This document shows, one piece after another, positions 22,760-52,502 of a stretch of DNA of 64,000 bases. Positions within the stretch are counted from its first letter, which is position 1, and every line of letters starts with the position of its first letter. Origin of the DNA: an uncultured Lachnospiraceae bacterium. Its GTDB lineage: Bacteria > Bacillota > Clostridia > Lachnospirales > Lachnospiraceae. The DNA lies in the NCBI GenBank assembly GCA_947177445.1, contig CAMWUL010000005.1:1-64000 (forward strand), written 5' to 3'. Position numbers and translations under genes: made by a program. The notes below the pieces were generated by a model, which had not been told where the DNA came from, did not search any database, and saw only the letters and a program-made list of their open reading frames with translations.

Positions 22760-23143
22760 TATCCTATTCCCTGTTTTCTGCAGATTTATTTCTTCCTGCG
22801 AATATCACTATTTTAGTTTTTTTTAAGTGCTCCTGTTTTTCAGCTGCAGCTGCTCTTTGGGCTGTACACTATAAATTATAATAGGGAGAAAGCAATATTC
22901 CCATAGTTAAATCAGCTGAAAAACTTTTTTAAAATTTGTGTAAATAGATGAAAAAACGAAATTGTCAAAAATTATATATAGAAATCAAGAATAATGGATG
23001 ACTAAATTAACCACGTGTGTGAGAATTAAATCAGAATTTAAGAAAAGGATTCTAAAGCGAGGAAATAGAAAAAGGAAAATAGAGAAGGAAAATAGAAAGA
23101 AAAATAGATAAGAAAATAGGAAAGAAAATAGAAAGGAAATCAG
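22760..23143. other. Regulatory gap upstream of the mannan locus
   Basis: 384 bp, AT-rich, no gene. TATAAT lies at 22877-22882 with weak -35 options. CTAAATTAA at 23002-23010 recurs upstream of the GH26 gene (30477-30485) and, as CTAAATTTAA, after the LacI gene (30305-30314), so it may be a shared regulator half-site. The final 90 bases are an almost pure purine tract (listed separately). Confidence 0.45.
23055..23143 (+). repeat. Polypurine leader with six ATAG repeats
   Basis: About 89 bases immediately before the esterase ATG consist of A and G, broken only by the T of six regularly placed ATAG units (GAAAATAGAAA-like, spacing about 11-14 bases) and the last few bases. The weak ribosome site GAAAGGAAATCAG is part of it. 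It could act as an unstructured translation enhancer or have grown by slippage. Confidence 0.65.
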
Positions 23144-25459
23144 ATGAAAGCAGAAGATATTTTGAAAGATTACATAGCGAATGATGAGTGTCCGGTGCTG
23201 CCGGAGGATTCTCACCTTCAGTACGAGGGCAGGATTGATTTTGGGAAGGAGGAAGGACCTTTGTGGACCTATCCGGCTACCAGCGTAAGACTCCGATTCC
23301 GGGGCAGCAGCCTGAAGGTGGTGTTGTCCAATTATCGTGCCTACTGGGACAATTTCCTGGGATATGTGTTGGATGGGGTGGAGCATTGTGTGAAGCTGAA
23401 TGAGAGCGGGATTACTGTTATTCGTCTGTTTGAGGGAGAATCAGAAGAGGAAGCAGAACAGGAAGCAGAACAGGGCGGCGCTTTTACCTGCCGGGAAGGA
23501 GAGGCTGGGAGAATCCATGATCTTTTGCTGTTCAAGCGTCAGGATTCCTGCCATATGGTGCAGATTCACGGCTTTATCGGCAGCGGGGACTTTGAATTAC
23601 ATTCCTGTCCACCTCTTTCCTCCAGAAGAATTGAGGTCTATGGGGACTCTGTGTCTGCAGGGGAGGTGTCTGAGGCGGTGGAGTACTGCGGGGAACCGGA
23701 TCCGCCGCACAACGGAGAGTATTCCAACAGCTACTATTCTTATGCATGGCTGACAGCCAGGAAGCTGGGGGCAAGGATTCATGATATTGCTCAGGGAGGC
23801 ATCGCTCTTATGGACGGCACAGGGTATTTTATGGAGCCGGAGCAGCAGGGCATAGAGCGTATTTACGATAAGGTGCAGTATCAACCGCAGATTTTAAACC
23901 AGTCCGCCTGTCCTTTGGGCGCAGACGGGGGAAGAGATCCTTTGAAGTGGGACTTTTCCCGGTATGAGCCGCAGGTGGTGATTGTGGCAGTGGGGCAGAA
24001 CGATGCCCATCCGATGGATTTCGCCGGGGAGGACTACGAGGGGGAGCGGATGCGCCAGTGGAAGAAGCAGTATATGGTTTTTCTGGACAGGCTGAGGAGG
24101 GTGCATCCCTGTGCCCACATTATCTGCATGACCACCATATTGGGGCATCACGAGAACTGGGATCGTGCCATTGAGGAAGTATGCCGCAGCACGGGAGACA
24201 GCAGAGTGTACCATTTCCTTTTCAGCAATAACGGAAGGGGGACCAGAGGGCATATTCGCAGGCCTGAGGCGGAGCGGATGGCAGAGGAGCTGTCTGCTTA
24301 CATCGAAGGGCTGGGGGAGCAGATCTGGAGAGACACTTATCGGATGGAGGCGGCATTTGCAAAAGCAAGCGCCGGAGAGAGCTTGACCGCAGGTTTTTTA
24401 GGAGGCTCCATCACTCAGGGAAGCCTGGCTTCTGTGCCGGAGAACTGTTATGCCAGTCGGGTCTGCAGGTGGTGGCAGGAGAAGTTTCCTGGCACAAAGA
24501 TTCGGTATGTCAATGCAGGCATCGGGGGCACTACATCTCATTTCGGCGTGGCCAGAGCCTGGGAGGATTTGCTGTTCACCAGGCCGGATGTGGTGTTTGT
24601 GGAGTTCTCTGTCAACGACGAAGACACGGAGCATTTCAGGGAATGCTATGAGGGGCTGCTGCGGCGGATTTTGAACTGTGACTGGAATCCCGCGGTGGTG
24701 CTGCTTCATAATCGCTTTTACAGTGACGGGCGCAGCGCCCAGAGGATTCATGATGAACTGGGGAGGTATTATTGTCTTCCCAGAGTGTGCATGGGAGACG
24801 CTATTTACCCCAGGATTGCTTCTGGGGAGCTGGCCATGGAGGAGATTACCCCTGATGGACTTCATCCCAATGACAGAGGTCATGCCATGCTGGCGGATTG
24901 TATTGATGCCATGCTGGAGCGGGTATATCATGGCTTCTGTGAGAGGAAGGATTTTTGGAAGGCCGGGGACAGAATTGCAGGGAAGGTTCCGGCTGGTTTT
25001 AACGAGGAGGATGTATCAGGCTGTGCGTTCCCCTCCCCTATGACGAGGAACCGCTATGAGAGTGCCCGCAGGCTCAGAAATGAGACGGTTACGGTGTATT
25101 GCAGGGGATTTGAGGCGGATTATGAGGTGCAGGGGGGAATTAAGGATGTTTTTAAAAAGGGCTGGCAGGCTGGCCATGCGGGAGCGGAGATTTGTTTTGA
25201 GGTTGAGGCCGCTTGTATTGGGATTCAATACCGCAGAACAGTGAGGAAGCCCGCGCCCAAGGCCGTGGCTGTGATAGACGGCAATGAAGAGGGAGCTGTG
25301 GTGCTGGACGGCAATTTTGATGAGGATTGGGGGGATTGTCTTGCCCTGCAGCTGCTGCTGGAGGATGCGGAAGCCGGGCATCACACAGTCACGGTCAGAA
25401 TTGTGGAAGCGGAGGAGGTTGTGACACCGTTTTATCTGGTGTCTCTGATCGTGGCCTGA
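23144..25459 (+). CDS. Two-domain acetylesterase (CE2-like + CE17-like)
   Basis: 771 residues, no signal peptide, so cytoplasmic. Residues 1 to about 340 look like CE2: a beta-rich N-terminal domain, then an SGNH hydrolase with GDSVSAGE (Ser169), VGQNDAHP and a late His in HIRRPEAE. From about 350 a second SGNH hydrolase begins, with GFLGGSITQGS (Ser422), NAGIGGTTS, FSVNDE and DGLHPNDRGH. A terminal beta-rich region of about 150 residues resembles the CBM35 domain of CE17 mannan esterases. In Roseburia intestinalis CE2 and CE17 are separate enzymes that together remove acetyl groups from all positions of mannooligosaccharides. Here both appear fused. First gene of the locus. Confidence 0.83.
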   Translation: MKAEDILKDYIANDECPVLPEDSHLQYEGRIDFGKEEGPLWTYPATSVRLRFRGSSLKVVLSNYRAYWDNFLGYVLDGVEHCVKLNESGITVIRLFEGESEEEAEQEAEQGGAFTCREGEAGRIHDLLLFKRQDSCHMVQIHGFIGSGDFELHSCPPLSSRRIEVYGDSVSAGEVSEAVEYCGEPDPPHNGEYSNSYYSYAWLTARKLGARIHDIAQGGIALMDGTGYFMEPEQQGIERIYDKVQYQPQILNQSACPLGADGGRDPLKWDFSRYEPQVVIVAVGQNDAHPMDFAGEDYEGERMRQWKKQYMVFLDRLRRVHPCAHIICMTTILGHHENWDRAIEEVCRSTGDSRVYHFLFSNNGRGTRGHIRRPEAERMAEELSAYIEGLGEQIWRDTYRMEAAFAKASAGESLTAGFLGGSITQGSLASVPENCYASRVCRWWQEKFPGTKIRYVNAGIGGTTSHFGVARAWEDLLFTRPDVVFVEFSVNDEDTEHFRECYEGLLRRILNCDWNPAVVLLHNRFYSDGRSAQRIHDELGRYYCLPRVCMGDAIYPRIASGELAMEEITPDGLHPNDRGHAMLADCIDAMLERVYHGFCERKDFWKAGDRIAGKVPAGFNEEDVSGCAFPSPMTRNRYESARRLRNETVTVYCRGFEADYEVQGGIKDVFKKGWQAGHAGAEICFEVEAACIGIQYRRTVRKPAPKAVAVIDGNEEGAVVLDGNFDEDWGDCLALQLLLEDAEAGHHTVTVRIVEAEEVVTPFYLVSLIVA

Positions 25460-25572: not shown

Positions 25573-26928
25573 ATGAGGAGAAGAACGGCAGCTGTAATTC
25601 TGGCGGTGGTGCTGGCTTTGGCGGGCTGTGCAAAAACAGATCACGCAGAGGGAGACGGCATGACGGAAGGAAGCGGCGCGGGAGCGGAAGATTCAGGCAG
25701 CGCGAACGGCGGGAACACGGGCGGAAGTGGGGAAGGCAGCGCAGAAGAATATGCTTCGGAGGAAGGAGAAGCCGGGGCGGAAGGGGATGAGACGGCACAA
25801 TATGAGATCGTGAAGGTGCCGGACTGGAAGGAAGTGGAGATCCCGGAGAGTGAGGCTCTGGCCTTCGTGGAGGACATGCAGCTGGGCTGGAGCCTGGGCA
25901 ACACCTTTGACGCATCCAACTGTAATGCGGCAAATGAGCTTGACTATGAGAAGGCCTGGAATGGCGTGATGACGGAAAAGGAGATGATCCACGCGGTGGC
26001 GGAAGCGGGCTTTCGAACCATCCGCATTCCGGTTTCGTGGCACAACCATGTGGACGAGAATGACCAGATCAGCCAGGCGTGGATGAACCGCGTCCAGGAG
26101 GTTGTGGACTGGGCGGTGGAGGAAGAATTGTATGTGATCCTGAATATTCACCACGATAATGAGGAGGGCTTTTTGTACCCCTCCTATGACCAGCTGGAGC
26201 GGTCAAAAGAATATGTGGGGAATGTGTGGGGGCAGATCGCGGAGCGGTTTGCGGACTATGACGAAAAGCTGATTTTTGAGGTGATGAATGAGCCCAGACA
26301 GGTGGAGACGGATCATGAGTGGTGGATTAATGTAAATACAGAGACGGGCAAGGAGTGCATAGACGCGGTGAATCAGCTGAATCAGGCAGGGGTGGATGCG
26401 ATCCGTGGAAATGGAGAAGGCTATAATTCTTCTCGTTATATCATGGTTCCCGGATATTGCGCGTCACCTGAATTCGCCCTGGCGGATGGTTTTGTACTGC
26501 CTGTGGATACCGGCATTGCCCAGAACAGGATTCTGGTGTCGGTTCATGCCTATACTCCCTACAATTTTGCGTTGGCGGGGGAGAATGACCAAAACAGCAC
26601 GGATGCTTTTTCCGTTTCAGACAGCAAGGGGACGGGGGATATTGATTCTTTTATGTTCAGACTCTATGAGAAGTATGTATCCAAGGGAATCGGTGTGGTC
26701 ATCGGGGAGTTCGGCGCAAGGGCGAAGCAGAACAATGTGGAGGCGCGGAAGGAATATGCCGCTTATTATGTGGCGGCAGCCAGACATTATGGTATGACTG
26801 CGTGCTGGTGGGACAATAATGCCTTTGGAGGCAGCGGAGAGAATTTCGGGCTTCTGCGCAGACTCAAAAGCGAGTTCCTTTTCCCGGAGATTGTAGCGCA
26901 GATGGTGTATTACAGCGAGAATAGATAA
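25573..26928 (+). CDS. Lipoprotein GH5 endo-glycanase
   Basis: 451 residues. Lipoprotein signal (LAVVLALAGC) and an acidic Gly/Ser linker to about residue 85 place it on the cell surface. The GH5 domain opens with LGWSLGNTFDA, has IRIPVSWHNH and NIHHDN, the acid/base Glu240 in MNEPR and the nucleophile Glu379 in IGEFGA; WWDNN follows. The pattern is that of GH5_4-type endo-beta-1,4-glucanases/mannanases. With GH26 it is a candidate for extracellular cleavage of (gluco)mannan. Starts after GGAGGCAAAG. Confidence 0.87.
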   Translation: MRRRTAAVILAVVLALAGCAKTDHAEGDGMTEGSGAGAEDSGSANGGNTGGSGEGSAEEYASEEGEAGAEGDETAQYEIVKVPDWKEVEIPESEALAFVEDMQLGWSLGNTFDASNCNAANELDYEKAWNGVMTEKEMIHAVAEAGFRTIRIPVSWHNHVDENDQISQAWMNRVQEVVDWAVEEELYVILNIHHDNEEGFLYPSYDQLERSKEYVGNVWGQIAERFADYDEKLIFEVMNEPRQVETDHEWWINVNTETGKECIDAVNQLNQAGVDAIRGNGEGYNSSRYIMVPGYCASPEFALADGFVLPVDTGIAQNRILVSVHAYTPYNFALAGENDQNSTDAFSVSDSKGTGDIDSFMFRLYEKYVSKGIGVVIGEFGARAKQNNVEARKEYAAYYVAAARHYGMTACWWDNNAFGGSGENFGLLRRLKSEFLFPEIVAQMVYYSENR

Positions 26929-27044: not shown

Positions 27045-29276
27045 ATGAGTGACATGAATATTTCGTATGACGAGAAAACGAGAATTTTTAAGCTGGATAC
27101 AGCCCGCACCAGCTATCTGATTGGAATCGTGGATGATGAGGGCTTTATTGGTCATGTGTATTATGGGAAGATCATCAGTGACAGCAGTGCCTCATATTTG
27201 ATGCGGACAGGGGAGGCACCTTTTGTACCCTCCCAAAACAGCAGGGACAGAAGCTCCTTCTTCGATGCCTTCCCCATGGAGTTTCCCAGCTGCAACACAG
27301 GGGACTACAGGGAGAGCGCAATAGAGCTGCTGGATGCCAGGGGACATAATGGCGTTGAAATCGTGTATCAGGCGCACCGGATCCTGAAAGGCAAGCCGGG
27401 CCTTTCGGGGCTGCCTGCTACCTTCGGCGGCGAGACGGAGTGCATGACCCTGGAGATCGACGGGATGGACAAGGTGCTGGGGCTTAAAGTAACATTGCGC
27501 TACAGTATCTTTGAGGATGTGGATGTGGTGGCCAGGAGTGTGTCTGTGAAAAATATGTCAGAAGAAAGTTTTTTTCTCACCAGACTGATGTCCGCCAGCA
27601 TTGACATGGATCAGGAGGATTACCGCCTGCTGACTCTTCATGGCTCATGGGCCAGGGAACGGCATATGGAATCCCGGGAGATTGGCTGCGGGAAGACAAG
27701 TGTGGGCTCCACGAGAGGTGAGTCCTCCCATCAGGAGCATCCCTTTATGGCGCTGGTATCTGAGACAGCTGCCCAGGAGCGAGGCAGCGTTTACGGCTTT
27801 CATTTTATATATTCCGGCAACTTTATTGCTCAGGTGGAGAGGACCCAGTTTGACAGTCTTCGGGTGCAGATGGGAATTCACCCGAAGAATTTCTGTTATC
27901 AGGTGAAGCCGGGAGAAGTGTTCCAGGCACCGGAGGTGATTCTGACATACTCTGACGAGGGGCTGGGGGGGATGAGCAGAACTCTTCATGATCTGTACCG
28001 GAACCATTTGATCAGAAGTCCTTATAAGGATAAAAAGCGTCCCATACTCATTAACAACTGGGAAGCCACTTATTTTAACTTTAACACGGAAAAGCTGCTG
28101 GATATTGCCAGAGAGGCCAGGAAGGCCGGCATCGAGATGCTGGTTATGGACGACGGCTGGTTTGGCCGCCGGAATGATGACAATACCAGCCTGGGTGACT
28201 GGAAGGTGAATGAAGAGAAGCTGAAGGGCGGCTTAAAGCCTCTGGTGGATCAGGTGAACCGGATTGGCTTGAAATTCGGCATCTGGTTTGAGCCGGAGAT
28301 GGTGTCTCCGGATTCTGATCTGTACCGGACCCACCCGGACTGGGCGATTGCCATACCGGGCCGTACTCCCTGCCGCTCCAGGAATCAGTTCGTCCTGGAT
28401 CTGACCAGGCGGGAGGTGCTGGAGTATGTCTACAACTCTGTGGCGGAGGTGCTGCACAGCGCCAATATCGAGTATGTGAAATGGGACATGAACCGTCAGC
28501 TTACGGATCTGGGCAGTCTGTATCTGGGCCGTGAGAATCAGGGCGAGCTCAGCCACCGTTATGTGCTGGCGGTGTATGAGCTGCAGGAGAGACTTATAAA
28601 GGAGTTCCCTGATCTGCTTCTGGAGAACTGCTCCGGCGGCGGTGCAAGGTTCGATCCGGGTATGCTTTATTACAGTCCGCAGATCTGGTGTTCTGATGAT
28701 ACGGATGCCATTGAGCGTCTGGTCATCCAGGAGGGGACGGCGTTGATTTATCCTCTTTCCGCCATAGGCGCCCATGTGTCGGATTGCCCCAACCATACAG
28801 TGGGCAGGAGTACGCCCTTTTCTACCAGAGGGAACGTGGCACTGGCGGGGACTTTCGGCTATGAGCTGGATATTACGAAGATTTCTGAAGAAGACAAGGC
28901 GCAGATTCCGGAGCAGGTGGCCCTGTACCATAGATACAATGACCTGGTAAGAGAGGGAGACTACTATCGTATTGCCTCATATCGGCAGAACCATTTCTAT
29001 GACTGCTGGGCGGTGGTGTCTAAGGATAAGAAAGAGGCGCTGGTCACATTTGTGCAGGTGCTCAGGCGTCCGAATCATCACAGCAGGATGATAAAGCTGA
29101 AAGGGCTGAATCCTGAGATGCGGTACAAAGTCTGTGAAGGGACAAATCCGGATGAAGGGGTGGGATGTGTGTACTATGGGGATACCCTGATGAACGCCGG
29201 AATTCCAATGGAAGAAATGTGGGGGGATTGTCAGTCCAGACTGATCTTTCTTGCGGCAGAAGGGAGCGGCGTATGA
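27045..29276 (+). CDS. GH36 alpha-galactosidase
   Basis: 743 residues, the length of bacterial group I GH36 enzymes. The nucleophile Asp481 is in VKWDMNR, the acid/base Asp551 in WCSDDTDAIER, and MDDGWFGRRNDD and NCSGGGARFDPGML are signature blocks. There is no signal peptide, so it would remove alpha-1,6-galactose from imported galactomannan oligosaccharides. ATG 27045 abuts the GGGAGAG; ATG 27054 is the better-spaced alternative. It overlaps the LacI gene by 4 bp. The 116-bp gap upstream is AT-rich, with TATAAG as a possible -10. Confidence 0.93.
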   Translation: MSDMNISYDEKTRIFKLDTARTSYLIGIVDDEGFIGHVYYGKIISDSSASYLMRTGEAPFVPSQNSRDRSSFFDAFPMEFPSCNTGDYRESAIELLDARGHNGVEIVYQAHRILKGKPGLSGLPATFGGETECMTLEIDGMDKVLGLKVTLRYSIFEDVDVVARSVSVKNMSEESFFLTRLMSASIDMDQEDYRLLTLHGSWARERHMESREIGCGKTSVGSTRGESSHQEHPFMALVSETAAQERGSVYGFHFIYSGNFIAQVERTQFDSLRVQMGIHPKNFCYQVKPGEVFQAPEVILTYSDEGLGGMSRTLHDLYRNHLIRSPYKDKKRPILINNWEATYFNFNTEKLLDIAREARKAGIEMLVMDDGWFGRRNDDNTSLGDWKVNEEKLKGGLKPLVDQVNRIGLKFGIWFEPEMVSPDSDLYRTHPDWAIAIPGRTPCRSRNQFVLDLTRREVLEYVYNSVAEVLHSANIEYVKWDMNRQLTDLGSLYLGRENQGELSHRYVLAVYELQERLIKEFPDLLLENCSGGGARFDPGMLYYSPQIWCSDDTDAIERLVIQEGTALIYPLSAIGAHVSDCPNHTVGRSTPFSTRGNVALAGTFGYELDITKISEEDKAQIPEQVALYHRYNDLVREGDYYRIASYRQNHFYDCWAVVSKDKKEALVTFVQVLRRPNHHSRMIKLKGLNPEMRYKVCEGTNPDEGVGCVYYGDTLMNAGIPMEEMWGDCQSRLIFLAAEGSGV

Positions 29277-30298
29277 CAAAATCGGTAAAACTTGCGGATA
29301 TCGCACAGAAGGTGGGAGTCAGCGTGGTAACTGTCTCCAAGGCGCTGTCCGACCAGAAGGGCGTCAGCGAGGAGATGCGTGAGAGAATAAAGAAGCTGGC
29401 GGAAGAGATGGGATACAGGCCGCCCTCCGCGGTGAAAAAGGAATCTGCCAAGCCGCGGAGCTACAATATTGGCGTGCTGATAGAGGAAGAATACCTGGAC
29501 AATTACGAATCCTTCTACTGGAAGATCTATCAGCAGATATCCATCTATGCCCTGCAGCAGGAATGCTTTGCCATGATGGAAGTGGTGAGCGGTTCTATGG
29601 AGGAGCAGATGGAGCTGCCGAAGCTGGTAAGGGAGCGTAAGGCTCACGGCATCATTGTCTTGGGCAGGATGCCGGACAGATATTTAAAGCTGCTGAAGGA
29701 GGACGAATCTGTCCCTGTGGTATACATTGATTTTACAGACGATGATCCGGACACGGATGCGGTAGTTTCCGACAGCTATTATGGTGCCTGCCGCCTGGTT
29801 AATTATCTCATCGGACAGGGACATACCAGGATTGCTTATGTGGGAACGCTGCTGGCTACCAGTTCTATCACGGACAGGTATTTCGGCTATGCGAAGGCGC
29901 TGATGGAGCATGATATTCCTCAGAGGGAGGACTGGAGGTTGGACGACAGACATGTGTCCAGCGGTTTTATTCAGGAGGGGTTGATGCAGATACCGGAGGA
30001 AATGCCTACCGCATTTTTCTGCAACTGTGACCTGACGGCAGGCAAGCTGATCCAGAAATTGCGTCAGGGAGGCTATCAGGTGCCTGAGGATATTTCCGTG
30101 GTGGGCTTCGACAACTATATCTATCCGGGAGTCTGTGACTTAGGGATCACCACCTATGAGGTGGATCAGGCAGAGATGGCGGCCCAGGCGGTGAAGATAC
30201 TGATAAAACGGATGGGAAACGAAGTAGACCGTCCCAGAACTTATATGGTTGAAGGCCGTATTGTTGTAAAGGATAGCGTAAAGAAAATAGAAAGTTAA
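29273..30298 (+). CDS. LacI-family regulator of the mannan locus
   Basis: 341 residues. Helix-turn-helix and hinge at the N terminus: VKLADIAQKVGVSVVTVSKALSDQKGVSEEMRERI; then a periplasmic-binding-like effector domain (VPVVYIDF, GHTRIAYVG, DISVVGFDNY). True start is ATG 29273 in an ATGA overlap with GH36; the track start lies inside that gene. It should repress mannan genes until an oligosaccharide binds. Two palindromes ahead of the GH26 operon are candidate sites. Confidence 0.92.
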   Translation: MTKSVKLADIAQKVGVSVVTVSKALSDQKGVSEEMRERIKKLAEEMGYRPPSAVKKESAKPRSYNIGVLIEEEYLDNYESFYWKIYQQISIYALQQECFAMMEVVSGSMEEQMELPKLVRERKAHGIIVLGRMPDRYLKLLKEDESVPVVYIDFTDDDPDTDAVVSDSYYGACRLVNYLIGQGHTRIAYVGTLLATSSITDRYFGYAKALMEHDIPQREDWRLDDRHVSSGFIQEGLMQIPEEMPTAFFCNCDLTAGKLIQKLRQGGYQVPEDISVVGFDNYIYPGVCDLGITTYEVDQAEMAAQAVKILIKRMGNEVDRPRTYMVEGRIVVKDSVKKIES

Positions 30299-30480: not shown

Positions 30481-30525
30481 ATTAAAGAGCGGATTTAGCA
30501 ATAAGCTTTTATGGGGAGCGCGGAT

Positions 30526-32031
30526 ATGAAAAGATGGAGGAGAACAGCGGCATATCTGATAGTGCTGGCTTTATCCGGCGGACAGCTTACAGGCTGTGGA
30601 CGTGATGTGCCCGGGGAGTCTGATGAAGCGGAGGAATTTACTGCGGAGGTCATCGCTGTCTATGAAGCGGAGGAGGCTGTCTTTGCGGGAAAGGTTCATG
30701 AGGAAATGGGCAAAGAGGAGTGCAGCGGAGGCGGATATGCCACCGGCTTCCAGGATGATGGGGATTCCTGCATGTTCAGTGTTGAGATACCTGAGGACGG
30801 CTTTTACGATCTGCAGTTTGGCAGCGCGGCCAGCGATTACAAGGAAAATTATGTGCATGTAGATGGAGAACCCATGGGGAATCTGGTGACGGACAGCAAG
30901 GCTTTTGCGGAGTCGGGAATCAGCAGAGTCTACATGACGGCCGGTGCCCATGAGGTTTCGGTTTTCAAGTTCTGGGGGTGGATTGACTTGGATTATCTGA
31001 AAATAATGACATCGAAGCCCATACCTGCCTCCACCTATCAGGTTTCCGCAGAGCTTGTCAATGAGAACGCTATTGATAACGCAAAGCGGCTGATGAGCTA
31101 TCTGGCGGACAACTATGGAACCAAAATTCTCTCCGGACAATACTGCGACACCGGAATCAACGGCAAAGAATTCCAGGTCATCAAAAAAGTGACCGAAAAG
31201 CTGCCGGCGGTGCTGGGATTGGATTTTATGGAATATACACCCTCCTTTGTGGAGCATGGAAGTACGGGACATTCCACGGATTTGGCTATTCAATGCTGGG
31301 AACAGGGGGGGATCGTAACCTTTTGCTGGCATTGGAATGCCCCGACGAAGTACCTGACCGGGAACTGGTACAGCGGTTTTTATACAGAATACACCAATCT
31401 GGATCTGGCAAAGGTGATGAACGGGGAGGATGCGGAAGGGTACGCTCTGCTGATGCAGGATATTGATGCAATTGCCAGTCAGCTATCCATTCTGCAGGAG
31501 GAGGGAGTCCCCGTCCTCTGGAGGCCTCTTCATGAGGCCAGCGGCGGCTGGTTCTGGTGGGGAGCCGCGGGGCCGGAAGCCTATATACAGCTCTACAGAC
31601 TGCTCTATGACAGGCTGGTCAACGAACATGGGCTGAATAACTTGATCTGGGTTTGGAACGGCCAGGACAAGGACTGGTATCCCGGGGATGAGTACGTTGA
31701 CATCATCGGCGAGGACATTTATCCCGGAGAGCGGGTGTACACTTCCCAGGTCAATAAGTATTTGGAGGCGGTGGAATACACAGAGGCAGGGAAGATGGTG
31801 GTTCTCTCGGAGAATGGCTGTGTGTTCGACCCGGATCTGGCGGTGAGAGACGGAGCTATGTGGGGGTTCTGGTGTACATGGAGCGGTGAATTTGTGGCAA
31901 AGGACACAGCCGTTTTCACCTACAGCGATCAGTACACGGAAAGCGACGCACTGAAGCGCTTCTATGAGGCAGAGGTGGTAGTTACTCTGGATGAGCTGCC
32001 CAATCTGAAAGAATATCCGATCCGGAATTAA
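30526..32031 (+). CDS. Lipoprotein GH26 beta-mannanase with CBM
   Basis: 501 residues. Lipoprotein signal (LTGC), then a beta-sandwich domain at about residues 35-165 (YEAEEAVFAG...AGAHEVSVFKFWGWIDLDYLKI) of the CBM35/CBM23-like type, then the GH26 catalytic domain. Acid/base Glu337 lies in RPLHEASGGWFWWG and nucleophile Glu429 in LSENG; FCWHWNAP and WVWNGQDKDWYPGD are family blocks. It would hydrolyse beta-1,4-mannan on the cell surface. ATG 30526 is favoured over 30511 by the GGGGAG spacing. First gene of the central operon. Confidence 0.93.
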   Translation: MKRWRRTAAYLIVLALSGGQLTGCGRDVPGESDEAEEFTAEVIAVYEAEEAVFAGKVHEEMGKEECSGGGYATGFQDDGDSCMFSVEIPEDGFYDLQFGSAASDYKENYVHVDGEPMGNLVTDSKAFAESGISRVYMTAGAHEVSVFKFWGWIDLDYLKIMTSKPIPASTYQVSAELVNENAIDNAKRLMSYLADNYGTKILSGQYCDTGINGKEFQVIKKVTEKLPAVLGLDFMEYTPSFVEHGSTGHSTDLAIQCWEQGGIVTFCWHWNAPTKYLTGNWYSGFYTEYTNLDLAKVMNGEDAEGYALLMQDIDAIASQLSILQEEGVPVLWRPLHEASGGWFWWGAAGPEAYIQLYRLLYDRLVNEHGLNNLIWVWNGQDKDWYPGDEYVDIIGEDIYPGERVYTSQVNKYLEAVEYTEAGKMVVLSENGCVFDPDLAVRDGAMWGFWCTWSGEFVAKDTAVFTYSDQYTESDALKRFYEAEVVVTLDELPNLKEYPIRN

Positions 32032-32775: not shown

Positions 32776-32807
32776 AATATGTGCATGGCGCGGAAAAGGG
32801 GAAAACA

Positions 32808-35804
32808 ATGAAGCGAGATAAAGTTTTGAGAAAGTCGATAGCAGCCGTTCTTCTTGCATCAATGGTGCTTGCTATGCTGCCTGCTGCGGGCATGGAGGCA
32901 ATGGCAAAGACAGACTGCTCCATGGATGAGTTTGACGAGATGATAAGCACCTACAATGTGGATGACTCCATTCCTTCCTACAATGAGTACAAGACATTGC
33001 ACTCGGATGCCGCTTATCCCGACACCGTGGTGGAGATTCCCGCTTCGGGCTTCGTCAGGTATGAGGAGAGCGATGTACCTGCGGCGCCGGAGGTTTATTC
33101 TGATTATGAGGGGATGGCGGGAGACAGCGTGCTGACAGGAGAGGACTCCCTGATTGAGTTTGAAGTGAATGTGGCTCAGAGCGGCATGTACAATCTCTCG
33201 GTGGTCTATTATCCCACAGAGGGCAAAAACTCTGATATTCAGAGAAGTCTGTTTGTGGATGGCGCGCTGCCTTTTGAGGAGATGGCGCTGCTGAGCTTCC
33301 CCAGAGTGTGGACTAATTATGTGGCGGACACCGGGACAGACGAGAACGGCATCACGGTCATGAACTGGGAGAAGGATAATCAGGGCAATGATGTGAAGCC
33401 GAAGACAATGGAGATACCGGAGTGGCAGACCAGATACCTGTATGACAGCGACGGCTATGTCACCGAGCCCCTCTCCGTTTATCTGGAGGCGGGAGAACAT
33501 ACCATCAGCATCGTATCGCTGCGGGAGCCCATGATGATTAACAAGCTGGTTTTAAGCAATGCCCAGGAGGTTAAAAGCTACGCGGAGGTAAAGGCGGGAT
33601 GGGATGCGGCGGGAGCTTCAGATACTACCGGCACCCACATCCTTCTGGAGGGAGAATATGCCACCAAGACATCCTCCCAGATGCTTTATCCCCAGCAGGA
33701 CCAGTCCTCCCCGGCAGTGTCACCCTCCAGCGCCAAGGCTCTTCTGAACAACTCCATCGGCGGCAATTCCTGGAGACTGGTAGGACAGTGGATTGAGTGG
33801 GAGTTTGACATCCTGGCGGATGGTTATTACTGCATTTCCTTTTATGACAAGCAGAATTTCTCCAGAGGTATTCACGTATCCCGCCGTATCACTATCGATG
33901 GTGAGGTGCCCTTTGCGGAAATGAATGATTACGCCTTCGATTACAGCCAGAACTGGCGTGAAGATAAGCTGTCGGACGCAAGCGGCGAACCTTACCGCTT
34001 CTACATGAAGGAAGGGCACCATGTACTCCGCATGGAGGTAGTGCTGGGCGAGTTCTCCGAGATTGTAGGCCTGGTGGAAGATGCAGTGCAGCAGCTGAAC
34101 AGTATTTACCGCCAGGTCATCAAGGTCACCGGCGTGGCGCCCGACACCTACCGGAGCTATCAGCTGGAGGCAACCCTTCCGGATTTACATAACCAACTGG
34201 TGGAAGCCAGAGATACTCTGAACGAGGCTCTGGAAAAGCTGGAAGCGGTGGCGGGCAGCAATACAGACAAAAAGGCTGTGCTTCTGACTATGAGAGACCA
34301 GCTTGACGATTTGATTAAGGACGGAGAGTACTTTGTCAGGGTCATCAGCGCTTACAAGATAAATGTCCGTGCCCTGGGCACATGGATTACCAACGTAATC
34401 AGCCAGCCCCTCCAGATAGACCGCATCAATATCTATTCTCCTGATGTGAAGATAAAGTATGACAAAACCGGATTCTTCAGCCAGGCGGGATATGAAATCA
34501 GCCGACTATACTATTCGTTTGTAATTGATTATAACAACATAGGAAGTGTGAATGAGAGCAGCGGCAAGGACAATGCGGCGCTGACTCTGTGGGTTGGTTC
34601 CGGACGTGACCAGGCAAATGTAATCAAGGGGCTGATAGATGATACCTTTACCAGCGAAACAGGTATCAGCGTCAATGTACAGCTGGTGGATATGAACACC
34701 CTGCTGAAGGCAACGCTGGTGGGAGAGGGTCCCGACGTGGCAATTCAGGTGGCAAACACCAACGGCGCGGCCGGAGCGGTGCTTTACACCGGCAACGATA
34801 CGCCGGTGAACTACGGAATCAGAAACGCGGTGCTGGATTTGACTCAGTTTGATGACTATAAAGAGGTGCTGGCGCGGTTTCCTGAAGCGGCAAACACCCA
34901 GTTCACCTACGATGGAGCGGTGTATGCCCTGCCGGAGACCATCACCTACCCGGTTATGTTTTACCGGAAAGATATTCTGAAGGAAATCGGAATGGAGGTT
35001 CCCGAGACCTGGGACGACGTGAAGGTTGCAATGACCGTGCTGGCAAAGAACCAGATGGAGTTCGGCATGCTGGCAAACGAGCAGATTTTTGCCTCCCTGC
35101 TGTACCAGAACGGAGGCCGTTATTACAACGACGATGGCAGCGCTTCAGATTTGGATTCCGACATTGCGGTAAACACCTTCAAGGATTTCTGCGAGTACTA
35201 CACGGACTACAAGCTGGATAAGGAGACCAGCGTGGAAGAGCGGTTCAGAACAGGTGAGTGTCCCATCATCATATCGGACTACACCACCTACAACAACTTT
35301 GCCGTGTCCGCGCCGGATATTGCGGGACTGTGGAGCTTTACCCAGATTCCCGGAACCGTGCAGGCGGACGGCAGTGTGGACCACTCCGTGGCAGGCACCG
35401 GACTGGCCAGCATGATTATGGCGGACACCGATTATCCGGACGCAAGCTGGGAGTTTATCAAGTGGTGGACCAGTGCAGACACCCAGACCCGGTACGGACG
35501 GGAGATGGAATCCCTGATGGGCTCTGCGGCCAGAGTTCCCACCGCAAACTATGAGGCGTTTCTGAATATGCCCTGGCCGGTGGATGATTTTGAAGCTCTG
35601 AAGGAGGCTATGGAGAGCGTCAGGGGAATTCCCCAGGTGCCCGGCGGATATTATTCCTGGCGTAATGTTTACAACGCGTTTTATACGGTGGTCAACGATA
35701 TCGACACGGCGCTTCCCAGGGAGGAGCTGATGGATAAGGTTATTTACATCAACGCGGAGATTGACTATAAGCGCGAAGAGCTGGAACTGGACAAGAAGAA
35801 ATAA
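32808..35804 (+). CDS. CBM-fused ABC solute-binding protein
   Basis: 998 residues with a signal peptide (ending near AMEAMAKT) but no lipobox Cys. Two beta-sandwich, CBM35-like regions are seen at about residues 65-255 and 278-420 (GEYATKTSS...GHHVLRMEV), then a helical segment to about 540, then a family 1 sugar-binding domain from about 590 (ALTLWVGSGRDQANVIKGLIDD; PVMFYRKDILKEIGMEVPETWDD). Ordinary binding proteins have 400-450 residues. It precedes a permease pair by 17 bp and probably presents mannan fragments to it. How it stays attached without a lipid anchor is unclear. ATG 32808 follows AAAGGGG. Confidence 0.82.
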   Translation: MKRDKVLRKSIAAVLLASMVLAMLPAAGMEAMAKTDCSMDEFDEMISTYNVDDSIPSYNEYKTLHSDAAYPDTVVEIPASGFVRYEESDVPAAPEVYSDYEGMAGDSVLTGEDSLIEFEVNVAQSGMYNLSVVYYPTEGKNSDIQRSLFVDGALPFEEMALLSFPRVWTNYVADTGTDENGITVMNWEKDNQGNDVKPKTMEIPEWQTRYLYDSDGYVTEPLSVYLEAGEHTISIVSLREPMMINKLVLSNAQEVKSYAEVKAGWDAAGASDTTGTHILLEGEYATKTSSQMLYPQQDQSSPAVSPSSAKALLNNSIGGNSWRLVGQWIEWEFDILADGYYCISFYDKQNFSRGIHVSRRITIDGEVPFAEMNDYAFDYSQNWREDKLSDASGEPYRFYMKEGHHVLRMEVVLGEFSEIVGLVEDAVQQLNSIYRQVIKVTGVAPDTYRSYQLEATLPDLHNQLVEARDTLNEALEKLEAVAGSNTDKKAVLLTMRDQLDDLIKDGEYFVRVISAYKINVRALGTWITNVISQPLQIDRINIYSPDVKIKYDKTGFFSQAGYEISRLYYSFVIDYNNIGSVNESSGKDNAALTLWVGSGRDQANVIKGLIDDTFTSETGISVNVQLVDMNTLLKATLVGEGPDVAIQVANTNGAAGAVLYTGNDTPVNYGIRNAVLDLTQFDDYKEVLARFPEAANTQFTYDGAVYALPETITYPVMFYRKDILKEIGMEVPETWDDVKVAMTVLAKNQMEFGMLANEQIFASLLYQNGGRYYNDDGSASDLDSDIAVNTFKDFCEYYTDYKLDKETSVEERFRTGECPIIISDYTTYNNFAVSAPDIAGLWSFTQIPGTVQADGSVDHSVAGTGLASMIMADTDYPDASWEFIKWWTSADTQTRYGREMESLMGSAARVPTANYEAFLNMPWPVDDFEALKEAMESVRGIPQVPGGYYSWRNVYNAFYTVVNDIDTALPREELMDKVIYINAEIDYKREELELDKKK

Positions 35805-44103: not shown

Positions 44104-44170
44104 TGAAAACGATAACGACTCTTTGCAAAACTAATCAACTTTTAACACACAAAAAAGGAGGATGAAAAAG

Positions 44171-47813: not shown

Positions 47814-48836
47814 ATGAGCAATATTAAGATGATTTCACCTGCAGTGCCCAATGTGCCCTGGCAGGAAAAGCCCGAAGGGCTTAAGGGAGCGCCTATCTGG
47901 AGATATACGGAGAATCCCATTATCGGGAGAAATCCCCTGGAGGGTGTGGCCCGTATCTTCAACAGCGCGGTGATGCCCTATGAGGGAAAGTTTATCGGCG
48001 TGTTCCGCGGAGAGCAGACCAACGGTATTCCCTATATTTATCTGGGGAGAAGCGAGGATGCTGTCCACTGGGAGTTTGATAAGGAAAAGATTCCTTTTGT
48101 GAACGAGGCAGGAGAGTCCTTTATGCCGATTTATGCCTATGATCCCAGGCTGGTAAAGGTGGAGGATACCTATTACATCATCTGGTGTCAGGACTTTTAC
48201 GGGGCGTCCATCGGCATGGCGAAGACCACGGATTTCAAGACCTTTACCAGACTGGAGAATCCGTTCCTTCCCTTTAACCGCAATGCGGTTCTGTTCCCCA
48301 GAAAGATTAACGGCAACTTTATGCTGCTGAGCCGGCCTTCGGATTCCGGTCATACGCCCTTCGGCGATATTTTTATCAGCGAGAGCCCGGATCTGGTATA
48401 CTGGGGCAGGCACAGGCATGTGATGAGCCGGGGAAACGAATGGTGGGAGTCCTTAAAAATCGGCGGAGGCGCAGCTCCTATTGAGACCAATGAGGGCTGG
48501 CTGCTGTTCTACCACGGCGTCAGCGGAACCTGTAACGGATATGTGTATTCTATCGGGGGAGCCATCCTTGATCTGGAGAATCCCTCCAAGGTGCTGTACC
48601 GCTGTGAGAACTTCCTGCTGACCCCTGAAGAGTGGTACGAAGAGAGAGGATTTGTTCCCAATGTTACTTTCCCCTGCGCTACCATCCACGATTCTGAGAG
48701 CGGAAAGATTGCTGTCTATTACGGCTGCGCGGACAGCTATGTGGGGCTGGCGTTTACCACGCTGGATGAGATCGTTTCCTATATCAAGGAACACAGCGTG
48801 ACCAACGAAACTGACAGAGAAATTGGAAAGAGATAG
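47814..48836 (+). CDS. GH130_2 beta-1,4-mannooligosaccharide phosphorylase
   Basis: 340 residues. GH130 five-bladed propeller signatures: RIFNSAVMPYEGKFIGVFRGE, YAYDPRLVKVEDTYYIIWCQD (with the conserved Asp of the catalytic site), KIGGGAAPIETNEGWLLFYHG and YYGCADSYVGLA. The length and lack of the GH130_1 N-terminal extension point to subfamily 2, which phosphorolyses mannooligosaccharides to mannose 1-phosphate. Cytoplasmic. Last gene before a strong terminator. Confidence 0.9.
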   Translation: MSNIKMISPAVPNVPWQEKPEGLKGAPIWRYTENPIIGRNPLEGVARIFNSAVMPYEGKFIGVFRGEQTNGIPYIYLGRSEDAVHWEFDKEKIPFVNEAGESFMPIYAYDPRLVKVEDTYYIIWCQDFYGASIGMAKTTDFKTFTRLENPFLPFNRNAVLFPRKINGNFMLLSRPSDSGHTPFGDIFISESPDLVYWGRHRHVMSRGNEWWESLKIGGGAAPIETNEGWLLFYHGVSGTCNGYVYSIGGAILDLENPSKVLYRCENFLLTPEEWYEERGFVPNVTFPCATIHDSESGKIAVYYGCADSYVGLAFTTLDEIVSYIKEHSVTNETDREIGKR

Positions 48837-48841
48837 TTTAG

Positions 48842-48885
48842 AGGGCCGTTGTAAATGAATTAAAATTTGTAACGGCCCTTTTTTA
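48842..48885 (+). terminator. Strong terminator after GH130_2
   Basis: The arms AGGGCCGTT and AACGGCCCT are followed by TTTTTT, six bases after the stop codon. It closes the central operon that begins with GH26. Confidence 0.88.
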
Positions 48886-48937
48886 TATGTGTGGTTGGGC
48901 GGCTGCATGGAAAAGATAATTTTTGGAGGATATAACT

Positions 48938-49981
48938 ATGGCAGAAGCAATGAATTTTGTGAAAGGGATTAAAGCTGGCATCAGCATCGGGGATACACTG
49001 GACGCCGTGGATGCGTCAATCCCCCGGGATGCGGCGCCAAGCGCCTTTGAGACAGCCTGGCGCAATCCCGTTATCACACAGGAGCTGGTGGATGCCATGC
49101 TGCAGTCCGGCTTTAACATGATTCGGTTTCCGGTGTCATGGACCAATCATCTGTGGCCGGAGCCTGATTTCCTGATACAGGAAAGCTGGCTGGACAGGAT
49201 ACAGGAGGTGGTGGATTACGCTTATCGCAGGAGTGCTTATGTCATTCTGAATCTCCACCACGAGAACTGGAATTATCCCTATTATGACAACTGTCAGGCG
49301 GCTTGTGAGAAGATGAAGACGGTGTGGGAGCAGATTTGTGAACGGTTCGCGGACTATGATGAGCATCTGATTTTTGAAGCCCAGAACGAACCCAGAAAAG
49401 TAGGGACGGAAATGGAATGGAACGGCGGTGACGAAGAGGGCTGGGAGGTAGTAAATGCCACCAACCGCGCATTTTTGGCGACTGTAAGGGCGGGGGGCGG
49501 ATACAATCCAAAACGCTATGTCATGCTTCCCGGATATGCGGCAAATTGCACGGTGGGCATCCGGCATATTCAGGTGCCGGAGGATGAAAGGGTAATCATC
49601 TCCGTACATGCCTACGAGCCTTACGAGTTTGCGCTGGAGTTTCCCGGAAGGAGAACCTGGAATCACGACACGGAAATGATCGATTCTCTTATGGAGAGCC
49701 TGAAGGAGCTGTTTACAGACAAGGGTATTCCGGTTATCATCGGTGAGTTCGGGGCGAGAAATAAGGATGGAAACGAGGATGAGCGGGCGGAGTGGGTAAA
49801 ATATTACGTGACTGCCGCTGCAGCCGTGGGAATCCCCTGCGCCTGGTGGGATAACGGTTTGTTCGAGGGCAGCGGAGAACTGTTCGGCCTGTTTGACAGA
49901 TATAATTATTCATGCGTCTATCCGAAGGTTTTGGCCGGGATCATGTATGGGAAATCACTGAGTTCAGGAACAGCCCATTAA
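48938..49981 (+). CDS. Cytoplasmic GH5 glycanase
   Basis: 347 residues without signal peptide. GH5 blocks: GISIGDTLDAVDAS, IRFPVSWTNH, LNLHHEN, acid/base Glu151 in QNEPR, nucleophile Glu270 in IGEFGARN, and WWDNG. It resembles the lipoprotein GH5 at 25573 over its whole domain but acts on imported oligosaccharides. Start ATG 48938 follows TTTTGGAGGA; the track's earlier start is inside the RBS. First gene of a unit continuing with the epimerase, GH130_1 and GH2. Confidence 0.88.
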   Translation: MAEAMNFVKGIKAGISIGDTLDAVDASIPRDAAPSAFETAWRNPVITQELVDAMLQSGFNMIRFPVSWTNHLWPEPDFLIQESWLDRIQEVVDYAYRRSAYVILNLHHENWNYPYYDNCQAACEKMKTVWEQICERFADYDEHLIFEAQNEPRKVGTEMEWNGGDEEGWEVVNATNRAFLATVRAGGGYNPKRYVMLPGYAANCTVGIRHIQVPEDERVIISVHAYEPYEFALEFPGRRTWNHDTEMIDSLMESLKELFTDKGIPVIIGEFGARNKDGNEDERAEWVKYYVTAAAAVGIPCAWWDNGLFEGSGELFGLFDRYNYSCVYPKVLAGIMYGKSLSSGTAH

Positions 49982-50054
49982 GGGGCGGCATGCTTTCCGG
50001 TGCGGGAAAGCCGCACGTATTGTGAGAAAGCCTTTCATGGAAGAAGGAGATAAA

Positions 50055-51290
50055 ATGACGGAATTGACAAGACTTGCGGGGGAGACAAAGGAGCATATGC
50101 TGGGGAAAATCGTCCCCTTTTGGCGAAGCCTGCGGGATGATGAGCGGGGAGGCTGGTACGGCTATGTGTCCTTTGATTTGGAGACGGATCCTGAGGCAGT
50201 GAAAGGCTGTATCTTGAACAGCAGGATTACCTGGTTTTTTTCCAATGTATATAAGGGCTGTCTGGAAGGCCTGATTTCGGAGGAGGACTGCCGCCGCCAC
50301 GGGTTTTCACCGGAGGACTTAAAGGCAGAGGCAGCGCATGGCTATGAGTTCCTGAAAGGACACTGTCTGGATAGGAGAAATGGGGGGATTTACTGGTCCC
50401 TGCAGGCAGACGGCACTCCGGAGGATACCACAAAACATACTTATAATCAGGCATTTGCCATCTATGCTCTTTCCTCCTGTTATGAAGCTTTGGGTGAAAA
50501 GGAAGCGCTGAAGACTGCCATGGAGCTGTTTGACCTGATTGAAGAAAAATGCAGGGACGAGGCGGGATATCTGGAGGCTTTTACCGAGGATTTCCAGCCG
50601 GAGTCCAATGAAAAGCTTTCAGAGAACGGTGTTCTGGCGGCCAGGACCATGAATACGCTGCTTCATGTATTTGAAGCCTACACACAGTTGTATAAAGTTT
50701 CCCGGGAAAAAAGGGTGGAAAGGCGTCTGGAATGGATTCTGGACACTTTTACGGATAAGATATACAACCCGGAACGGCATCGTCAGGAGGTTTTTTTTGA
50801 CGAAAGCTATCACTCACTGATTGATCTGCATTCCTACGGGCACGACATTGAGGCGGCTTGGCTTGTGGATCTTGGGGTGAAGATTCTGGATAGTCCAGAT
50901 TATGAGAGGAAGCTTGCGCCTGTTACAAGAGATTTGACGGAGCAGATATACAGGGTTGCTTTTGACGGTCATTCCCTGGCAAACGAATGCGAAAAAGGCG
51001 TAGTTAATTCCCATCGCATCTGGTGGGTTCAGGCAGAAGGCGTAGTAGGTTTTTTGAACGGCTTCCAGAAGGACGGCGGGCACAGGGAGTATTTGGAGGC
51101 GGCACTGAGACAGTGGGAATTTATTCAGGAGCACGTGGTTGATATGCGAGCCGGCTCTGAGTGGTTCTGGGAGGTGGACGAGAAAGGAAGGCCTTATCCG
51201 GACAGACCCTTGGTGGAACCATGGAAGTGTCCTTACCATAACGGCAGAATGTGCCTTGAGATACTGAAGCGGGTACGTGAATTGAAATAG
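50055..51290 (+). CDS. Cellobiose 2-epimerase
   Basis: 411 residues, an (alpha/alpha)6-barrel of the AGE family. Motifs include FWRSLRDDERGGWYGYVSFD, RITWFFSNVY, YNQAFAIYALSSCYEA, SYGHDIEAAWL, NSHRIWWVQAEGVVGF and WFWEVDEKGRP, as in cellobiose/mannobiose 2-epimerases. It converts beta-1,4-mannobiose to mannosyl-glucose for the GH130_1 phosphorylase encoded next. ATG 50055 lies after AAGGAGA; the track start is 33 bp early. Confidence 0.92.
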   Translation: MTELTRLAGETKEHMLGKIVPFWRSLRDDERGGWYGYVSFDLETDPEAVKGCILNSRITWFFSNVYKGCLEGLISEEDCRRHGFSPEDLKAEAAHGYEFLKGHCLDRRNGGIYWSLQADGTPEDTTKHTYNQAFAIYALSSCYEALGEKEALKTAMELFDLIEEKCRDEAGYLEAFTEDFQPESNEKLSENGVLAARTMNTLLHVFEAYTQLYKVSREKRVERRLEWILDTFTDKIYNPERHRQEVFFDESYHSLIDLHSYGHDIEAAWLVDLGVKILDSPDYERKLAPVTRDLTEQIYRVAFDGHSLANECEKGVVNSHRIWWVQAEGVVGFLNGFQKDGGHREYLEAALRQWEFIQEHVVDMRAGSEWFWEVDEKGRPYPDRPLVEPWKCPYHNGRMCLEILKRVRELK

Positions 51291-51305
51291 AGAGGGATGC
51301 AGACA

Positions 51306-52502
51306 ATGATACATGAAAAATATTATGAAATGAGCAGGGAGCAGGAAAAGATCCTTGGCAGAAAAAACGTGAAAGACGCTTCTTTTTACAATGGCATTTA
51401 TGACCGTTATGTTCATCCTGTGCTGACAAGGGAGCATATTCCCCTGGCATGGCAGTACGATCTGAATAAGGAGAGCAACCCTTATTTTATGGAGCGTCTG
51501 GGTGTAAACGCAGTGATGAATTCCGGCGCGATCTATTTAAACGGGAAATATTATCTGGTAGCCCGCATAGAGGGGAATGACAGGAAATCCTTCTTCGGCG
51601 TGGCGGAGAGCGACAATGGGGTGGATGGGTTCCGGTTCTGGGATTACCCGATTTTGTTTGAGGATACCTGCCCGGAGGAGACCAATGTGTATGATATGCG
51701 CCTGACACAGCATGAGGATGGCTACATCTATGGTGTGTTCTGTTCCGAGAGCAAGGACAGGACGGCGGAGGATCTGTCCGCTGCTGTGGCTGCGGCGGGA
51801 ATCGTGCGCACAAAGGATTTGAAGCGCTGGGAGAGGCTGGACAATCTTGTGACGCTGCACTCTCCCCAGCAGAGGAATGTAGTGCTGCACCCGGAGTTTG
51901 TGGACGGCAAGTATGCTCTTTACACCAGGCCTATGGATGATTTTATAGAGACGGGAAGCGGAGGCGGTATCGGCTTCGGGTTATGCGGCGATATTACCCA
52001 TGCGGTGGTGGATGTGGAGAAGATAACCAGCCTTCGCAAGTACCACACCATTACCGAGTCCAAGAACGGCGCAGGCGCGGTTCCCATCAAGACAGATCTC
52101 GGCTGGATCCATATTGCCCATGGAGTGAGAAATACGGCGGCAGGACTGCGGTATGTGATTTATGCCTTTGCTACGGCGTTGGAGGATCCTTCCAAAGTCA
52201 TCGCTGAGCCTTCCGGCTTGCTGATCGGACCCAGAGGGGACGAGAGAGTGGGTGATGTCTCCAATGTAGTGTTCACCAACGGCGCTATTGTCAATGAGAA
52301 GGAAGAGGTATTTATCTATTATGCTTCCTGTGACACAAGGCTTCATGTGGCCGTTACCACACTGGACAGGCTGAAGGACTATGTGTTCCATACCCCCGCA
52401 GACCCTGGCAGGAGTGTGGAGTGTGTGGCACAGAGATGCGGCCTGATTCGGAAGAACCTGGAGCTGCTGTCGAGAGACGGTATTGCCAAAAGCCAGCCGT
52501 GA
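51306..52502 (+). CDS. GH130_1 mannosyl-glucose phosphorylase
   Basis: 398 residues. Family blocks: [48 protein letters not shown] (catalytic Asp), [38 protein letters not shown] and [11 protein letters not shown]. This pattern is that of 4-O-beta-D-mannosyl-D-glucose phosphorylase, giving mannose 1-phosphate and glucose. AGAGGG abuts the ATG at 51297, so the in-frame ATG at 51306 is preferred. It follows the epimerase by 15 bp. Confidence 0.92.

Follow-up and report, generated by a model that had tools for sequence, protein, structure and literature searches.

A gene in a beta-mannan utilisation locus of an uncultured Lachnospiraceae bacterium joins two carbohydrate esterases, CE2 and CE17, and, judged from its sequence, very probably encodes a bifunctional acetylesterase that acts in the cytoplasm on beta-manno-oligosaccharides and would remove all acetyl groups from imported chains. 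It lies in the window, meaning here the whole stretch of 64,000 nucleotides that was analysed (Table 1). The initial annotation had proposed that the two esterases are fused in one protein, and this holds: a single 771-residue ORF matches both families and carries both full catalytic sets. Both families are known, but their union in one protein is a new architecture, for which the fused CE6-CE1 esterases provide a precedent. The open-access literature yielded no description of a CE2-CE17 fusion; CAZy and subscription papers lay outside this scope, and a database entry may exist.

Table 1. The fusion gene, its parts and its mannan-locus neighbours, in window coordinates.
Feature	Position	Strand	Basis or remark
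CE2-CE17 fusion gene	23144..25459	+	ATG start, 771 aa, one uninterrupted frame
CE2_N beta domain, residues ~27-155, low-complexity insert ~99-120	23222..23608	+	Pfam, model strands
CE2 SGNH catalytic domain, residues ~160-395	23621..24328	+	folds 2WAO/2WAA/3U37
Ser169, CE2 nucleophile (GDSVSAGE)	23648..23650	+	aligned to CtCE2 nucleophile GDS
His370, CE2 catalytic base, putative Ser-His dyad partner	24251..24253	+	conserved in relatives
Junction: CE2 end GLGEQIW (Trp395), four residues, CE17 helix from Arg400; linker absent	24326..24346	+	
CE17 SGNH catalytic domain, residues ~398-600	24335..24943	+	6HFZ match
Ser422, CE17 nucleophile (GGSITQGS)	24407..24409	+	
Asp571-x-x-His574 (DGLH) of CE17	24854..24865	+	
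CBM35-like CE17 cap, residues ~630-771, contains Trp729	25031..25456	+	6HFZ alignment
GH5 lipoprotein, next gene downstream	25573..26928	+	Pfam PF00150
GH36 alpha-galactosidase	27045..29276	+	
LacI regulator	29267..30298	+	
CBM35-GH26 mannanase lipoprotein	30511..32031	+	
GH130 mannooligosaccharide phosphorylase, intracellular GH5, AGE-type 2-epimerase, second GH130	47814..52502	+	cytoplasmic mannan catabolism

Residues 24-396 of the protein form a CE2 esterase and residues 396-771 a CE17 esterase with a CBM35-like cap. The N-terminus, MKAEDILKDYIANDECP, has no signal peptide and no hydrophobic stretch, and because of the latter the protein is probably cytoplasmic. Pfam detects two SGNH/GDSL domains and a CE2_N match (PF17996, residues 27-103, E 7e-17), which bears out the CE2-type beta domain that had been placed ahead of the first SGNH site. 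The C-terminal end receives no Pfam call; its proposed CBM35-like character agrees with the 6HFZ alignment and with Foldseek matches to solved CBM35s. The AlphaFold2 model, built from 41 window and locus sequences, reached pLDDT 84 and pTM 0.78 with the deeper alignment (the earlier model had pLDDT 75), with modest pLDDT in the CE2-site loops (~171-290, block means mostly 56-82) and low pLDDT at 113-116, inside the CE2_N domain insert. At the junction the model places helices at 373-389, 392-395 and 399-409, and the boundary between the halves comes at a single residue. A 12-base repeat present three times at window 23438-23474, in the CE2 beta domain, encodes the Glu/Gln-rich low-confidence insert; in the L013 sequence the insert at this position is longer. 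Directly 5' of the start codon, at window 23063-23139, a purine-rich unit of 12 bases (AAAGGAAAATAG) occurs about six times.

Sequence comparison and structure prediction both assign each half to the family named for it. Against solved structures, E is 1.5e-104 for the C-terminal half with RiCE17 of Roseburia intestinalis (6HFZ) and 2.3e-18 for the N-terminal half with CtCE2 (2WAO). Model residues 396-771 superpose on 6HFZ with Z 44.4, rmsd 2.2 and 347 aligned positions at 48% identity, and similarity to RiCE17 extends over the whole length, with the SGNH domain followed by the CBM35-like cap. RiCE17 (6HFZ/6HH9), 47-48% identical to this half and of the same build, shares the Ser/Asn/Asp/His set and the stacking Trp, but it is a stand-alone protein, whereas the CE17 half of the window protein lacks the first residues and is joined directly to CE2. 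A search of the genus around a Roseburia-named MAG returned no RiCE17 match above 58%.

Model residues 24-396 superpose on 2WAO (Z 33.5, rmsd 2.5, 310 aligned) and on 2WAA (Z 33.9), the whole N-terminal half giving Z 33.9-32.5 against the 2WAO, 2WAA and 3U37 folds. Its CE2_N-type jelly-roll domain precedes an SGNH domain, the order found in CtCE2 (2WAO), CjCE2A (2WAA) and BpEst2A (3U37), with which it also shares a Ser-His pair and a Gly/Asn oxyanion hole. However, identity to these enzymes is only 20-30%, the closest structurally characterised CE2 being CtCE2 (~25-30%), and the half falls, unlike all three, in a Lachnospiraceae mannan-locus CE2 subgroup. CtCE2 is, moreover, fused to a cellulase instead of a second esterase, and CjCE2A has a full catalytic triad. 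A CE2 from a Faecalibacterium genome, taken as FpCE2 type, is 30% identical, so that CE2 positional specificity is transferred at a distance. The NCBIfam equivalog AxeC2, a CE2 enzyme, scores 72.5 bits against a curated cut-off of 500, and on this score the CE2 half is related to AxeC2 but is not that equivalog.

The fusion was searched for in 138 genomes of the genus, in a family sample (n=397) and in a class sample (n=391). It is present in six of the 138 (the window's own, G080, G039, G083, G918 and G023), although in G023, whose gene is cut by contig ends, the CE2 tail and the CE17 half stand together in a single frame of 452 residues. The two-domain ORFs of the five other genomes are ~53-70% identical to the window protein. 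Separate CE2 genes directly adjoin CE17 in 56 of 86 CE2 rows from Lachnospiraceae, a set enriched by the search, and in Faecalicatena faecalis, among others, CE2 and CE17 share a reading frame that is interrupted by a single stop codon, after which comes Arg-Met.

Two Butyrivibrio genomes (L054 and L056) encode a fusion of 701-705 residues within a mannan locus of the order epimerase-GH130-GH130 that also has a LacI regulator. The L054 protein begins with an Est2A-type CE2 (E 6e-65 against BpEst2A, 3U37) and ends with a CE17 (E 1.6e-85 against 6HFZ). As in the window protein, CE2 comes before CE17 in a single linker-free frame within a mannan locus, but the CE2 belongs to the Est2A subgroup. 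This other CE2 subgroup, together with a separate position in the CE17 tree, makes the Butyrivibrio fusion an independent one. Two more Butyrivibrio genomes keep Est2A-type CE2 and CE17 genes adjacent and separate.

No other single-frame CE2-CE17 was seen among the matches in the family (397) and class (391) samples, at thresholds that may miss distant fusions. Long frames of the family sample that were considered as further examples proved to be other fusions (GH1-CE2, GH130-CE2, CE17-CE17, CE17-phosphomannose isomerase, PGA_cap-CE17 and GGDEF-CE17) or separate ORFs. CE2 is thus found fused to other mannan-locus enzymes, to GH130 in L080:1504-3735 (-), where GH130 was assigned by similarity to that of the window, and to GH1 in L104:4187-6628 (+). 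CE17 carries a C-terminal phosphomannose isomerase in L111:3691-5751 (-) and L107:1603-3705 (-). Tandem proteins with two CE17-like SGNH domains, a CE2_N-like stretch between them and a lipoprotein-like signal (L103:8816-11224, L105:1570-4005 and L118:1649-4144) may be extracellular double esterases. In L109:1611-4448 a CE17 lies in frame downstream of a GGDEF/PAS protein, and L108:2324-3976 has a shorter related leader; this appears to be an in-frame fusion of recent date within a mannan locus.

The joint is the same in all six fused proteins of the genus: GLGE-x-x-Trp (TLGE or SLGE in two), four residues and Arg-Leu/Met, with zero indels, while the Asn-Arg-Gly-Asn leader common in separate CE17 proteins is missing. 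Alignments A2 and A5, which were anchored by in-frame tandem genes read through their stops, replaced a plain MAFFT alignment of the half-length proteins with the fusion, discarded for placing CE17 rows onto the CE2 half. A quick CE2 tree scattered the fusions, as several independent events within the genus would, but this idea was set aside in view of better-fitting constrained trees and the identical joint: the best tree grouping the fused CE17 halves is 12.7 log-units better than the free tree, and the gain is 30.9 log-units for the best tree in which four CE2-only relatives group with the fused CE2 halves. Holding the fused CE2 halves as their own clade costs 22 log-units and is not rejected (p-AU 0.249). 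The CE2-only genomes (G904, G005, G035 and G086) have the gene order GH36-LacI-CE2-phosphomannose isomerase and the fused G083 has GH36-LacI-CE2-CE17-isomerase, the isomerase in these loci being assigned by similarity to Pfam-called isomerases. Two of the CE2-only genomes hold a CE17 of another lineage elsewhere. The simplest reading, supported though not proven, is one fusion in the genus followed by loss of the CE17 half in one subclade. The fusion probably arose once, from adjacent CE2-CE17 genes: these operon neighbours may have lost the stop codon and the start region of the second gene, which would leave the last CE2 helix nearly continuous with the first CE17 helix.

The surroundings of the gene constitute a full beta-mannan utilisation locus of the Roseburia/Faecalibacterium type. 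Beyond the CBM35-GH26 mannanase come DUF624, a solute-binding protein with permeases, further permeases, a CBM65 lipoprotein and a second solute-binding protein, and then GH130, an intracellular GH5, an AGE-family epimerase, the second GH130 and GH2. The lipoprotein, at window 44162-46093, has three CBM65 domains and no called catalytic domain, and is probably a surface glycan-binding protein. A solute-binding protein of 1007 residues (window 32781-35804) has some 600 residues ahead of its binding fold without a Pfam call.

Acetyl groups limit the use of mannan by gut bacteria, and their full removal has so far required an enzyme pair (CE2 and CE17, or CE7 and CE25 in Bacteroides). The separate enzymes RiCE17 and FpCE17 remove 2-O-acetyls, while RiCE2 and FpCE2 act on the 3-O, 4-O and 6-O positions, so that together they strip the chain; on doubly acetylated mannose, according to a review, CE17 is needed first. 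The statement that the two are separate and complementary in acetyl position in Roseburia agrees with this literature. Since the specificities of the separate enzymes are complementary, their fusion should act as a complete deacetylase in a single polypeptide. The same two activities are expected as in the RiCE2 + RiCE17 and FpCE2 + FpCE17 pairs, in the same kind of locus, but those pairs are two separate proteins.

In the proposed pathway, surface GH26 and GH5 mannanases would cut mannan, and ABC transporters would bring in the acetylated oligosaccharides. The C-terminal CE17 half would take off axial 2-O-acetyls, with the CBM35-like cap holding the sugar through Trp729, and the N-terminal CE2 half would take off 3-O-, 4-O- and 6-O-acetyls through the Ser169-His370 dyad. 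The deacetylated chain would then pass to GH36, GH5, GH130 and the epimerase. The two activities and their acetyl positions we infer, and the fusion would mainly fix a 1:1 dose and the co-location of enzymes that were already operon neighbours.

A stronger proposal is that the enzyme channels, the seamless joint setting the 2-O and 3/4/6-O sites in fixed register so that facing sites pass the chain, or an acetyl migrated from O-2 to O-3/O-6, from CE17 to CE2 without release. Doubly acetylated units and migrating acetyls would then be cleared in order, and selection for this would have made the fusion twice. The helix-to-helix joint, free of a linker and of equal length in all six homologues, and the same order of halves in the convergent Butyrivibrio fusion speak for it, as does the CE6-CE1 fusion esterase of Bacteroides ovatus, for which intramolecular synergy has been documented. 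The CE6-CE1 acetyl-feruloyl esterases of that species and of Flavobacterium johnsoniae likewise unite two esterase families of complementary action in one polypeptide, but they concern xylan, other families and other bonds. Against channelling, full deacetylation is already reached by separate enzymes, and the published kinetics of the separate Faecalibacterium enzymes FpCE2 and FpCE17 show competition, not synergy. Additionally, the linkage appears dispensable, because one subclade of the genus lost the CE17 half and kept CE2. On balance, channelling is unlikely, and co-location of two complementary sites is the preferred reading.

That both halves are esterases depends on their active sites, two of which had been proposed, with Ser169 in GDSVSAGE and Ser422 in GFLGGSITQGS; both lie as claimed. 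In the CE17 half, all 109 aligned relatives share Ser422, the oxyanion residue Asn491, Asp571, His574 and Trp729, giving the nucleophile, Asp, His, oxyanion Asn and cap stacking Trp together. Trp729 aligns with Trp326 of RiCE17, the aromatic residue linked to 2-O specificity. In the CE2 half, Ser169, Gly219 and Asn286 are invariant in all 86 aligned relatives, and His370 in all 84 with that column filled. Column 368, two before His370, holds P/K/H/Q/S, mostly Pro or Lys; Asp is absent there from the window protein and from the five commonest residues among the aligned relatives. As Asp is missing at 368 while Ser169 and His370 are invariant, this CE2 group probably uses a Ser-His dyad. The Asp is optional in CE2, many characterised members of which, CtCE2 and CjCE2B among them, use such a dyad; CtCE2 D789 mutants keep significant activity, and the residue is absent in 14 of 26 members surveyed (PMC2661963, PMC9487903).

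The missing Block V Asp, together with the second role of CtCE2 as a cellulose-binding module, which makes a CE2 site usable for binding, could suggest that one half alone is active while the other has a binding or structural role. This is highly improbable: the CE2 site keeps its Ser, His, Gly and Asn without variation, the lack of the Asp extends to this whole CE2 group, CtCE2 can do without that residue, and CtCE2 is itself catalytically active. Both sites are complete for their families; neither half fails to match its family, and neither site lacks part of its catalytic set.

The fusion is also maintained as one protein. For the pairs in which both halves were measured in full, dN/dS of the window protein (CE2 half, then CE17 half) is ~0.13 and 0.21 against L013, ~0.18 in both against L014, and ~0.27 and 0.18 against L150; the figures are rough because synonymous sites are near saturation. 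Both halves are under purifying selection (dN/dS ~0.13-0.27), and this, with the presence of the fusion in five more genomes, argues against chance or an assembly fault. One frame with both sites complete is thus an architecture kept by selection in other species. A separate CE17 product could start at Met401, whose ATG at 24344 follows a GGAGAG ending 11 bases before, but the chance of this is slighter still, because Met401 is a Leu codon (CTG, CTC or TTG) in the other five fused proteins and the ORF stays a single conserved frame. A stop codon hidden by sequencing or assembly error is scarcely credible even in a draft genome (87% complete, 123 contigs), given the same joint in five further genomes at ~53-70% identity, in public records from more than one study.

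As a natural two-site enzyme, the fusion makes it possible to test directly if deacetylation runs faster, or acetyl migration is dealt with, when complementary esterases are linked; it is also a candidate one-step biocatalyst. With tandem, fused and half-lost forms in one genus and a second independent fusion, it presents a clear case of operon neighbours becoming one enzyme.
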